Positions 7,116 through 61,827 of a stretch of 64,000 bases of DNA are shown here, in pieces (positions within the stretch are counted from its first letter, which is position 1; every line of letters starts with the position of its first letter). The stretch lies in the NCBI GenBank assembly GCA_902776645.1, contig CACYQT010000002.1, forward strand, positions 1 through 64,000, in the 5' to 3' direction. The notes under the pieces are model-generated. The model saw only the letters and a list, made by a program, of their open reading frames with translations. It had not been told where the DNA came from and made no database searches. This DNA is from an uncultured bacterium. Its GTDB lineage: Bacteria > Verrucomicrobiota > Lentisphaeria > Oligosphaerales > Oligosphaeraceae. The translations under genes were made by a program, and so were the position numbers.

Positions 7116-7179
7116 CCTAGAATACTAGAAGTCTAGAATACTAGAAGTCTAAAATTCTAGAAGTCTAGAATCCTAGAAC
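7116..7179. repeat. CTAGAA word repeat
   Basis: About nine imperfect copies of CTAGAAT or CTAGAAG follow each other up to the last codons of hisF. Similar CTAGAA clusters occur at 16624-16648 and 38294-38370. The words are self-complementary in part, so the cluster can fold into alternative hairpins downstream of hisF. Confidence 0.7.
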
Positions 7180-25283: not shown

Positions 25284-25609
25284 GAAAATGGCCGTACACC
25301 GCCACGTTGTGCGCCGTGTCTGCCGCGTCATGGGGCTAGATTTCTACGCGCAATTTGACGGGTCGATATCAAATTTCGCCATATCCGACGTGTGACCGCA
25401 ATATCGGTTGCCAGTGCCCAAATGGCAGAAAACACGTCTTAAAATCAAGAAAATTTCGGGCGACTATTTCCGTTTTTGGCAAATAGTCGCCCGAAAACAG
25501 GCCGTCAAATTTGGGCGACTATTTCCGTTTTTGGCAAATAGTCGCCCGAAAATTGACCATCGAAAATGGGCGACTATTTCCGTTTTTGGCAAATAGTCGC
25601 CCGAAAAAA
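25284..25609. other. Gene-free spacer between convergent genes, with hairpin array
   Basis: The first 170 bases hold no recognisable feature. The rest is the three-copy hairpin array at 25458-25602. Short frames here simply read the repeat and are not genes. Confidence 0.7.
25458..25602. repeat. Three identical 35-base hairpins at 55-base period
   Basis: Copies lie at 25458-25492, 25513-25547 and 25568-25602. Each is GGGCGACTATTT, an 11-base loop (CCGTTTTTGGC) and AAATAGTCGCCC, followed by GAAAA. The 35 bases are identical in all three copies, and the two 20-base spacers differ but share a GAAAA-n-CC-n-T layout. Lying between the pepC and GH127 3' ends, they may be a bidirectional terminator or a mobile palindrome amplified in tandem. 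Confidence 0.9.
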
Positions 25610-55676: not shown

Positions 55677-55752
55677 TCATGTCAAGGCCGAGACGGCCTT
55701 GCTACCCCAATTGCTCATGTCAAGGCCGAGACGGCCTTGCTACCCCAATTGC
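55677..55752. repeat. 38-base tandem repeat containing GTAG-headed REP-like palindromes
   Basis: TCATGTCAAGGCCGAGACGG followed by CCTTGCTACCCCAATTGC occurs twice without change. Each copy holds a palindrome (55683-55705, 55721-55743) that on the minus strand reads GTAGC-AAGGCC-GTCTC-GGCCTTG. The tandem lies in the leader of pta, between buk and pta. Confidence 0.85.
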
Positions 55753-59465: not shown

Positions 59466-59497
59466 TAGAACATCCAGAACATCCAGAACATCCAGAA
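59466..59497. repeat. ACATCCAGA word repeat
   Basis: AGAACATCC occurs three times in direct tandem, in the spacer just before the AAGGAGA site of the next gene. The number of units could vary between strains. Confidence 0.65.
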
Positions 59498-59512: not shown

Positions 59513-61690
59513 ATGCAGATCGGTCGTGGAAACTGGTACGGGAAGAAATATTATTTCGGCATGCATTATGACTTGCATGCGAACGCCAACGATACGGAGC
59601 TGGGCACGCATTGCAGTCCGGCGGAACTCGTTCCAATGCTGAAAATCATGAAGCCGGATTTCGTGCAGACGGACTGCAAAGGCCATCCGGGCATGACCAG
59701 CTGGTTTACGCAAGTGCCTGACGGGACGGTGTCTCCGGGCGTCGTGAAAGATGCGATGGCGCAGTGGCGCGAGGCAACGAAACAGTTGAAACTGCCGCTT
59801 CACTGCCATTATTCTGGCATTTGGGACATGGCGGCGGCAAAGAAGCATCCTGAATGGACCGTTGTGCCCGCGCCGGGCTCGGACCGCAAGTCGGATAAAA
59901 TGTGTCCGCGCAGCCCCTATCTGGAGAAACTGCTGATTCCGCAGCTGTTCGAATTGATTGACCGATACGGCGTCGATGGCTTCTGGATCGACGGCGATTT
60001 GTGGGCGGTCGAACCGTGCTATTGCAAGAAGTGCACGGCGGAGTTCAAGAAACGCACGGGAATCGCGGAACCGCCTGTCTCTGAAAAAGATGCGAACTGG
60101 ACGGCGTGGATGAACTTCCAGCGGGAAAGCTTCATGGAATACGTGACGAAATACACGGAGGCCGTCCATGCGCACAAGCCGGACGTGAAGGTCTGTTCCA
60201 ACTGGTTGCAGACGTTGCGCAATCCGGGCGATCCGTCTGTTCCGACGGATTGGATCAGCGGCGACAACAGCTGGATCTGGGGGCTTGACGGCAGCCGTTG
60301 CGAAGCCCGCTGGCTGTGCAATCGCGACAAGCCGTGGGACATCATGCTGTGGTCGTTCAGCAAGTCGTCCGAGATGGGCAATCCCGCGTCGCCATGGATC
60401 ATGAAACCTGTGGAAATGCTTGAACAGGAGGCGGCTATGCTGCTTTCGACGGGCGGTAACGTGCAGATCTACGAGACATGCGGATTGCGTTCCGGGCAGC
60501 TCGTTCCGTGGCGCATGGAACGTCTTGGCGAAGTGTCGAAATTCGTGAAGCAGCGCCGCAAGCTCTGTCAGGACACGCAGACCTTCCCGCTGGTCGCCGT
60601 GCTCCATTCGGAGGCCCATTATTATTCGCAATGCACGTCGTCCAGCATCATGTACGGCTACGACATCGCGCCTGTGCAGGGGGCGACGTGGATTCTGTCG
60701 GACTGCCATTACGGCGTCGATATTCTGGACGAATTCATGCTGGAGGAGATGCTGGAGCAGTTCCCCGTGGTGGTCGTCCCCGAGCAGACGCGCATGTCGG
60801 ACAAGATGGTGAAACTGCTGAAGGCGTATGTGAAGGAAGGCGGTTGCCTGCTGCTGACGGGCGTCGGCATGGCGGAGCGTTTCGGCTACGACTATCTCGG
60901 CGTCCAGAAGATGGAGACGGTCGAGAAGGCGACCTATTACCTGCCAGTCGGCAAGAAGGAGATGTTCCCGCTATACAGTGGTACATGGGGACTTGTGACG
61001 ACCGCCAAGGCGAGCCGTGCGTTCGGCAGGCTTGGCAGCAGTCCGTTGCGCAATGAAAAACTGACGGATTATCCCGTGGCGGTTTTTAAACGGCATGGCT
61101 ACGGGACGGTCGCCTTCATGCCGGCGGACATCTGCCGCGACTACCAATCCAATCGCTATCCGGAGACGCGCAAGTTCATGAAGGAACTGATGGACCGTTT
61201 GTTCACGGAGCAACCGGTGGTCGTCGACGCGCCGGTCGGGTTGGATTTCGTGGCGCGTTGCGGCGACAACGGCCTGCTGTTCCATTTCATCAACCGCACG
61301 TCCGGTAATCCGACGCGGCCCGGCCAGGGGATGGTGGAGGAGATTCCGCCGCTCGGCCCCGTGAAGATGACGCTGCGCATGGGCTGGAAGCCCGAACTTG
61401 TGAAATGGCATTTCGAAGACGATGCCGCCATGACATGGACGTGGACGCCTGTCGATTTCGACGGCGAAGCCGAGCATGAGCACGATGAGCACTGTGACTG
61501 CGGCCATGACCACGAGCATGGCGAAAAATGCGACTGCGGCCACCATCATGAGCATGGCGAAAAGTGCAATTGCGGCCATGACCATGAAGACGGCGACGAC
61601 TGTTGCGGCGAGATTCTGGAAGGCGAGTCAGGCGTTCTGGAAGTGACGCTGTCACAGGTGAAACTGCACGGCGTCGTGCAAGTTTTGTAG
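59513..61690 (+). CDS. TIM-barrel hydrolase-like protein with CxCxxC site and His/Cys-rich repeat tail
   Basis: The 725-residue protein has a barrel with VDGFWIDGDLWAVEP (154-168), then C169-x-C171-x-x-C174-x-x-x-F, as in 27618-29246 and 44396-45430, and a beta-galactosidase-like trimerisation domain (VVVPEQTRMSDKMVKLLKAY, near 418) in which VKEGGCLLLTGVGM resembles amidotransferase-like domains. After residue 652 lies an unusual insert: three 12-residue units (C-D-C-G-H-D-H-E-H-G-E-K) with 13 His and 8 Cys in about 48 residues, then the normal beta strands. No signal peptide. AAGGAGA lies nine bases before the ATG. Substrate unknown. Confidence 0.65.
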   Translation: MQIGRGNWYGKKYYFGMHYDLHANANDTELGTHCSPAELVPMLKIMKPDFVQTDCKGHPGMTSWFTQVPDGTVSPGVVKDAMAQWREATKQLKLPLHCHYSGIWDMAAAKKHPEWTVVPAPGSDRKSDKMCPRSPYLEKLLIPQLFELIDRYGVDGFWIDGDLWAVEPCYCKKCTAEFKKRTGIAEPPVSEKDANWTAWMNFQRESFMEYVTKYTEAVHAHKPDVKVCSNWLQTLRNPGDPSVPTDWISGDNSWIWGLDGSRCEARWLCNRDKPWDIMLWSFSKSSEMGNPASPWIMKPVEMLEQEAAMLLSTGGNVQIYETCGLRSGQLVPWRMERLGEVSKFVKQRRKLCQDTQTFPLVAVLHSEAHYYSQCTSSSIMYGYDIAPVQGATWILSDCHYGVDILDEFMLEEMLEQFPVVVVPEQTRMSDKMVKLLKAYVKEGGCLLLTGVGMAERFGYDYLGVQKMETVEKATYYLPVGKKEMFPLYSGTWGLVTTAKASRAFGRLGSSPLRNEKLTDYPVAVFKRHGYGTVAFMPADICRDYQSNRYPETRKFMKELMDRLFTEQPVVVDAPVGLDFVARCGDNGLLFHFINRTSGNPTRPGQGMVEEIPPLGPVKMTLRMGWKPELVKWHFEDDAAMTWTWTPVDFDGEAEHEHDEHCDCGHDHEHGEKCDCGHHHEHGEKCNCGHDHEDGDDCCGEILEGESGVLEVTLSQVKLHGVVQVL
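61466..61609 (+). repeat. In-frame repeat coding the His/Cys-rich tail
   Basis: Three 36-base units code for C-x-C-G-H-x-H-E-x-G-x-x. They differ at few bases, which suggests recent expansion by slippage or unequal crossing-over. Confidence 0.85.
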
Positions 61691-61692
61691 GG

Positions 61693-61827
61693 GTAGCAAG
61701 GCCGTCCCGGCCTTGGCGTGGTAGCGAGGTCGTCTCGGCCTTGGCAGGGGTAGCAAGGCCGTCTCGGCCTTGGCAATGGCGTGATGGCCTCGTTATTTTC
61801 TAATCAAGGGCGGGACGCCCTTGCTAC
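61693..61827. repeat. Four REP-like palindromes with GTAG head
   Basis: Direct units at 61693-61716 (AAGGCC-GTCCC-GGCCTT), 61721-61744 (GAGGTC-GTCTC-GGCCTT) and 61750-61773 (AAGGCC-GTCTC-GGCCTT), and an inverted unit at 61806-61827 (AAGGGC-GGGAC-GCCCTT). All carry GTAGC at the 5' side. They fill the space between convergent genes. Confidence 0.85.

Follow-up and report, generated by a model that had tools for sequence, protein, structure and literature searches.

One question raised by this locus is why a sugar hydrolase should carry, within its last domain, three tandem units crowded with His and Cys, and what use a cell could make of them. The gene lies in the window, i.e., the whole stretch of 64,000 nucleotides analysed here (contig CACYQT010000002.1, from an uncultured member of the Oligosphaeraceae). 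The answer that we favor, with reasonable though far from full confidence, is that the insert would be a cytosolic spur for the buffering or storage of metal, probably Zn(II), carried by a bystander enzyme and taking no part in catalysis or in the enzyme's own CxCxxC cluster.

Of the 48 residues in this stretch, 12 are His and 8 are Cys (Table 1). The original prediction had placed it correctly, in coordinates and in frame, and had its eight Cys right, but counted 13 His. It is by far the richest His/Cys stretch among the window's ORFs of at least 100 aa, and its 20 His and Cys compare with a maximum of 12 in any 48-residue stretch over 2000 codon shuffles of the gene. Behind a His-rich cap it consists of three in-frame 12-residue units, CxCGHxHxxxxx; the fuller unit CxCG-H-x-H-x-H with a 12-residue period is satisfied by units 1 and 2, unit 3 having HxHED. 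Pairwise identities among CDCGHDHEHGEK, CDCGHHHEHGEK and CNCGHDHEDGDD are 11/12, 8/12 and 7/12 in protein and 30/36, 26/36 and 25/36 in DNA, and Tandem Repeats Finder reports a 36-base period at 61497-61587 (2.5 copies, 81% matches). The 36-base triplication first described is therefore right in spirit, there being three tandem units, but these are not fresh or exact copies; a recent exact triplication was rejected, as the units are 69-83% identical in DNA. Nor is the stretch a tail, as it had been called: it enlarges the turn of the protein's final beta-hairpin, within the C-terminal beta domain, and the closing strands lie downstream. In the orthologue alignment this turn, which follows a strand ending near W-x-W, spans 60 residues here versus a short turn in outgroups. 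An AlphaFold model predicts, at low confidence, a strand (640-646), a coil (647-706) and a strand (707-713), and only this local pattern was used from a run with four sequences (mean pLDDT 47, pTM 0.37). Searched alone against Pfam, the stretch gave nothing useful, and the metallothionein profile did not match it at E up to 1; whereas a metallothionein is a small stand-alone Cys-rich protein, this is a 48-residue insert in a protein of 725 aa.

Table 1. Coordinates of the glycosidase gene and of the features within it
Feature	Position	Strand	Basis
GH151/GH29-like (alpha-L-fucosidase-like) protein, 725 aa	59513..61690	+	ORF, translation, Pfam, profile match to 6TVK
D160, aligns with GH151 nucleophile D154	59990..59992	+	6TVK alignment, counted by eye
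C169-Y-C171-K-K-C174, the enzyme's own cysteine cluster	60017..60034	+	orthologue alignment, 6TVK
D251, aligns with GH151 acid/base E235 (Asp for Glu)	60263..60265	+	6TVK alignment, counted by eye
Expanded turn between last beta strands, residues 647-706	61451..61630	+	orthologue alignment, AlphaFold model
His/Cys-rich stretch, residues 652-699	61466..61609	+	composition count
His-rich cap EHEHDEH ahead of the repeats	61472..61492	+	translation
Unit 1	61493..61528	+	
Unit 2	61529..61564	+	
Unit 3	61565..61600	+	
Closing CCG	61601..61609	+	translation

For the host of this insert, Pfam returns GHL10 (6.6e-7) and Alpha_L_fucos (7e-7), each over its cut-off; the latter (GH29) scores 29.4 bits against a cut-off of 25.2, over residues 49-173 only, and the GHL10 score is similar. 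A profile of 17 orthologues matches the alpha-L-fucosidase 6TVK over its full length (1.6e-34, profile positions 16-673 of 673), the next matches being beta-galactosidases. In agreement with the earlier description of an otherwise ordinary beta domain in a TIM-barrel hydrolase, the protein shares with this GH151 fucosidase of Paenibacillus thiaminolyticus (iso2/ALfuk2) the barrel, central and beta domains, the CYCxxC motif and the nucleophile, aligned with D160, which is invariant in 17/17 aligned orthologues. In contrast, 6TVK has no His/Cys insert, and the Glu that serves as its acid/base is absent here, the aligned residue being an Asp in 17/17 orthologues (GH151 residue assignments from PMC10154630). 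Because Asp251 occupies the acid/base position, the enzyme is called GH151-like rather than a GH151 member; the relation is distant, which leaves the substrate uncertain. No signal peptide is obvious by eye in the 725-aa protein, which suggests that it should be cytosolic. Its two closest named matches are MAGs of Victivallales from the omasum and the reticulum of water buffalo.

That the repeated unit would bind metal is supported most strongly by the company it keeps in the phylum, for which 387 genomes were searched. The tandem pattern CxCG-x8-CxCG occurs in 89/387 genomes, much of this being low-complexity or chance, with many sites for the backward control as well. The narrower pattern CxCGHxHxH has 115 listed sites in 76/387 genomes versus 8 for the pattern read backward (tallied by hand). 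Ninety motif loci were fetched and their ORFs clustered with the motif masked; family names rest on representatives. The count includes all 90, although some 15 of the single loci are short or seem to be out-of-frame chance matches, and L291 reads as a chance match in another protein. Heavy-metal P1B-ATPases account for 39/90 loci, with representatives matching TIGR01525 and TIGR01512, and six are ABC ATPases with ZnuC as the best NCBIfam model, below its cut-off. Three further hosts (L215, L216 and L239) are HypB-like, a name that we assume from a CobW/HypB/UreG Pfam match and the N-terminal motif; three are CobW and one is CusB/HlyD-like. Metal-handling hosts thus make up 52/90 loci, and 38/90 lie outside these groups, some of them chance frames. 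Among the 38 are ten unknown proteins of about 500 aa, three nucleotidyltransferase/phosphotransferases, two unnamed proteins (L226, L227), two small proteins and two DUF4380-like proteins; 20/90 loci are singletons, which include the window, the CusB-like protein already counted, a transketolase and a GH2 beta-galactosidase as well as chance frames.

The likeness to the pumps extends to the arrangement of the units. P1B-ATPases of the phylum (L307 and others, as well as L199-L203, five further motif contigs outside the 90 that are all P1B-like by sequence) carry CxCGHxHxH units in their cytosolic N-terminal stretch, several with the 12-residue tandem period, and in several pumps tandem CSCGHDHGHEHN-type units have the same 36-base period as the window insert; the difference is that the module sits on an exporter there and on a soluble hydrolase here. 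Since the clamp is found on metal pumps as well as on unrelated proteins, the CxCGHxHxH element is probably a reusable metal-buffering attachment. The metal binding that was originally proposed is accordingly well supported by context, both by these hosts (P1B-ATPases, ZnuC-like, HypB-like and CobW proteins) and by the conservation of His/Cys codons described below.

Several of these loci are of interest in themselves. Most members of the group of about 500 aa (L240, L273-L275, L277, L289, L296, L300, L301, L313) have a His/Cys-rich inner stretch, and Pfam gave no match for the two queried (L274 and L300). In another family of the phylum, L204:788-2800 encodes a nucleotidyltransferase-phosphotransferase fusion with CxCG/H units within its kinase-like part. 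In L319 the start of a P1B-ATPase runs in one frame into a solute-binding-protein domain near a contig end, which looks like an assembly join. Within the window's own order, L229 encodes a GH2 beta-galactosidase-like protein with one CDCGHNHHH unit between the LacZ_4 and small-chain domains.

How such a spur could act can be outlined for the reading that we favor. Flexible and solvent-exposed, it would be an addition in the last hairpin's turn, where folding and catalysis would stay undisturbed; each 12-residue unit, with a CxC pair and two or three His, could suffice for about one tetrahedral ion, and the whole would serve as a metal buffer or store of the cytosol with the bystander glycosidase as its carrier. 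A buffering role would depend on how strongly this carrier is expressed. If metal binding is confirmed, short grafted repeats would be a means for bacteria to distribute metal buffering among bystander enzymes, and an enzyme could bear a metal-binding stretch that has nothing to do with its own chemistry. The proposal also yields a testable prediction on cytosolic metal control in this group, the nearest named members of which are from the forestomach of buffalo, and points to the last-hairpin turn of a glycosidase as a position that naturally tolerates an addition and could take a metal tag.

Similar appendages exist on proteins with another job. One is SlyD, an FKBP with a Cys/His-rich tail; Pfam finds no FKBP domain in the window protein. 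In function, the closest counterpart is domain B of Helicobacter pylori GroES (HspA), likewise a lineage-specific Cys/His-rich addition to a conserved housekeeping protein; it binds two Ni in each monomer and influences both the content of nickel and the tolerance to it (PMC5116745). Domain B differs in being C-terminal, with disulfide-bonded Cys and nickel as its metal, whereas here the units form an internal CxCG-repeat loop, and no homology is claimed. The metal-binding His-stretches of HypB, UreG and COG0523/CobW GTPases similarly come and go, being present in some family members and absent from others (PMC2770081), although their hosts are metallochaperones and not glycosidases.

These precedents bear on which metal would be bound. 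Nickel, copper, cobalt or cadmium could take the place of zinc, which is favored only by the ZnuC-like and Zn/Cd pump models, and the HypB-like and CobW hosts point elsewhere. A scavenger of nickel or another toxic metal would have an identical anatomy and differ only in its metal; it draws on the three HypB-like hosts and on the GroES precedent, whose metal is nickel. Yet the largest host class consists of heavy-metal P1B pumps that match Cd and Zn/Cd models, to which the six ZnuC-like proteins add, and we regard such a scavenger as somewhat unlikely compared with a zinc buffer.

In the window's own family, represented by 29 genomes, the CxCGHxH pattern has sites in 24/29 genomes, many of them chance frames, and a profile search of the family with the module alignment (A1) mainly recovered loci found before. 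An FKBP_N-FKBP_C protein has a His/Cys-rich linker in 9/17 loci, the window's own genome included (L136), and a small conserved protein has a His/Cys-rich C-terminus in 8/22 loci, with the 12-residue period of the window insert in L066 and L058. A GH78-type (rhamnosidase-like) protein (L046, L048) also bears the module, N-terminally, and a protein with weak similarity to DUF4380 (L057, L080, L081) bears it C-terminally. The statement that no known glycosidase of this type bears such a run was therefore too strong, as these GH78-like proteins and the GH2-like L229, all of the same order, carry one; a literature search over titles and abstract openings, which is weak evidence of absence, brought up no publication that describes a glycosidase with an insert of this kind. 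As for the individual loci, the window genome's FKBP-type isomerase lies at G000:C6:23983-24648, its Cys/His-rich linker falling between two domains. The small conserved protein (L113-L134) has a core of about 100 aa (EGRKFCVVFVKV), occurs in 22/29 family genomes with lineage-specific tails, some Asp-rich and His/Cys-rich, and has no Pfam match above cut-off.

The pumps of this family present a contrast. P1B-ATPase relatives occur at E <1e-60 in 29/29 genomes, and none of the 27 close pumps (L243-L269; 51-56% identical to the module-bearing query) has a His/Cys-rich N-terminus in the N-terminal stretch examined, whereas other families of the class have the module on pumps and on soluble proteins side by side. 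Absence from the pump together with presence on soluble hosts suggests a shift of the module from the former to the latter. A tentative extension, which we regard as possible and rather doubtful, is that in this Victivallales-type family cytosolic metal buffering moved off the exporter and the module was repeatedly grafted onto unrelated proteins (GH151-like, GH78-like, FKBP, DUF4380-like and the small conserved protein) at harmless sites, i.e., a hairpin turn, a domain linker and N- or C-termini. If true, a function like that of metallothionein would be distributed over exchangeable carriers, with no metallothionein involved.

Among orthologues of the glycosidase, the insert is present in 6/8 close same-family sequences (the window, L005, L006, L009, L010 and L011), with three units in the window protein and two in its congeners L005 and L006. 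The absence from all relatives that would have counted against the original prediction is thus not observed. L009, L010 and L011, from another genus, bear a shorter version (HxHQHxCDCGC...DDDCDCGC). Orthologues of a third genus (L007, L008) lack it, as do nine distant paralogues and 14/14 additional orthologues from the order whose C-terminus can be read (L086-L096 and L098-L100; the truncated L097 was left out). A single-genome artefact or assembly error was rejected, since independent congeners carry the insert with synonymous changes. When 21 orthologues are placed on a tree from which the insert was left out, two changes are needed and the branching of three subclades is not fixed, consistent with two gains or with one gain and a loss in genus 8. 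The genus-8 orthologues show no visible compensation in the enzyme for the missing insert, so that it is dispensable, a point that weighs against the buffering reading.

This distribution is relevant to a possible control of the enzyme by metal, in which metal on the spur would alter oligomerization or access to the active site and couple glycoside breakdown to metal status. The spur lies in the C-terminal beta domain and occurs in both of two clades of the enzyme family, which otherwise has a short turn at that place, and GH151 enzymes form an unusual oligomer in which a neighbor complements the active site (PMC10154630). However, the genus-8 orthologues do without the spur, and the module occurs on many unrelated proteins, so that a role specific to the host enzyme would need a fresh origin in every case. 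We therefore hold metal-responsive control to be unlikely.

Codon comparisons further show that selection acts on the His and Cys of the insert. Across its 17 His/Cys codons, L005 and L006, a gap-free pair, differ by six synonymous and one non-synonymous changes. Between the window and L005 the ratio is 9:0 by window residue, or 9:2 counting His/Cys of either sequence, and between the window and L006 it is 6:0 or 6:1, the either-sequence counts using the best gap position. Under neutrality, with a transition bias of 5, the synonymous share for a His/Cys codon would be 0.24; six synonymous changes out of seven then have P ~1e-3, and 9:0 a smaller value. That these codons change almost only synonymously indicates that the ligands are under selection. 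This weighs against the insert being a functionless low-complexity expansion by slippage, tolerated in a loop, for which speak the tandem units in a permissive turn and their differing number (3 vs 2) in close relatives. Genus 7 also speaks for it, since constraint on the insert as a whole is weaker there than on the remaining sequence (dN/dS 0.12-0.27 vs 0.09-0.10), but the His/Cys codons are nearly unchanged; in genus 1, by contrast, the insert's dN/dS is as low as that of the rest (0.017-0.035 vs 0.036-0.048). Taking both sides into account, pure slippage appears distinctly improbable.

The enzyme's own cysteine cluster, CxCxxC, is a matter separate from the insert. It is reminiscent of the structural zinc site of GH42 enzymes. 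Its three cysteines are invariant in 17/17 aligned orthologues, 12 of them without the insert, and 6TVK has a corresponding CYCTTC; conservation of the cluster in proteins that lack the spur means that serving it is not what the spur is for, and this candidate role was rejected. A metallochaperone arm that would load the cluster is, for the same reason, very improbable, despite the two thiolate sites within one polypeptide. Thus, of the two roles first envisaged for the insert, storing or sensing metal is the likelier half, and service to C169-x-C171-x-x-C174 is not supported.

With regard to its surroundings, the glycosidase gene keeps its amidohydrolase and GH88 neighbors in both congeners, but of the two congener loci only L033 also keeps the AHCY-like and butyrate-kinase genes (the L034 contig breaks off within the amidohydrolase gene). 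A check of eight more loci, which apart from L035 have short flanks, turned up none of these four neighbors. Between the amidohydrolase and glycosidase genes lies a nine-base tandem repeat, AGAACATCC, with 3.4 copies at 59467-59497. A 23-base element, GTAGCAAGGCCGTnnCGGCCTTG, occurs in six copies, at 55683-55743 (-), 61693-61772 (+) and 61805-61827 (-), versus a mean of 0 in 100 shuffles; with its palindromic core and its tandem copies behind gene ends, it is possibly terminator-like or REP-like. Elsewhere in the window, a 55-base unit is repeated in tandem at 25451-25607 (2.8 copies) and a CTAGAATT-type unit at 7117-7178.
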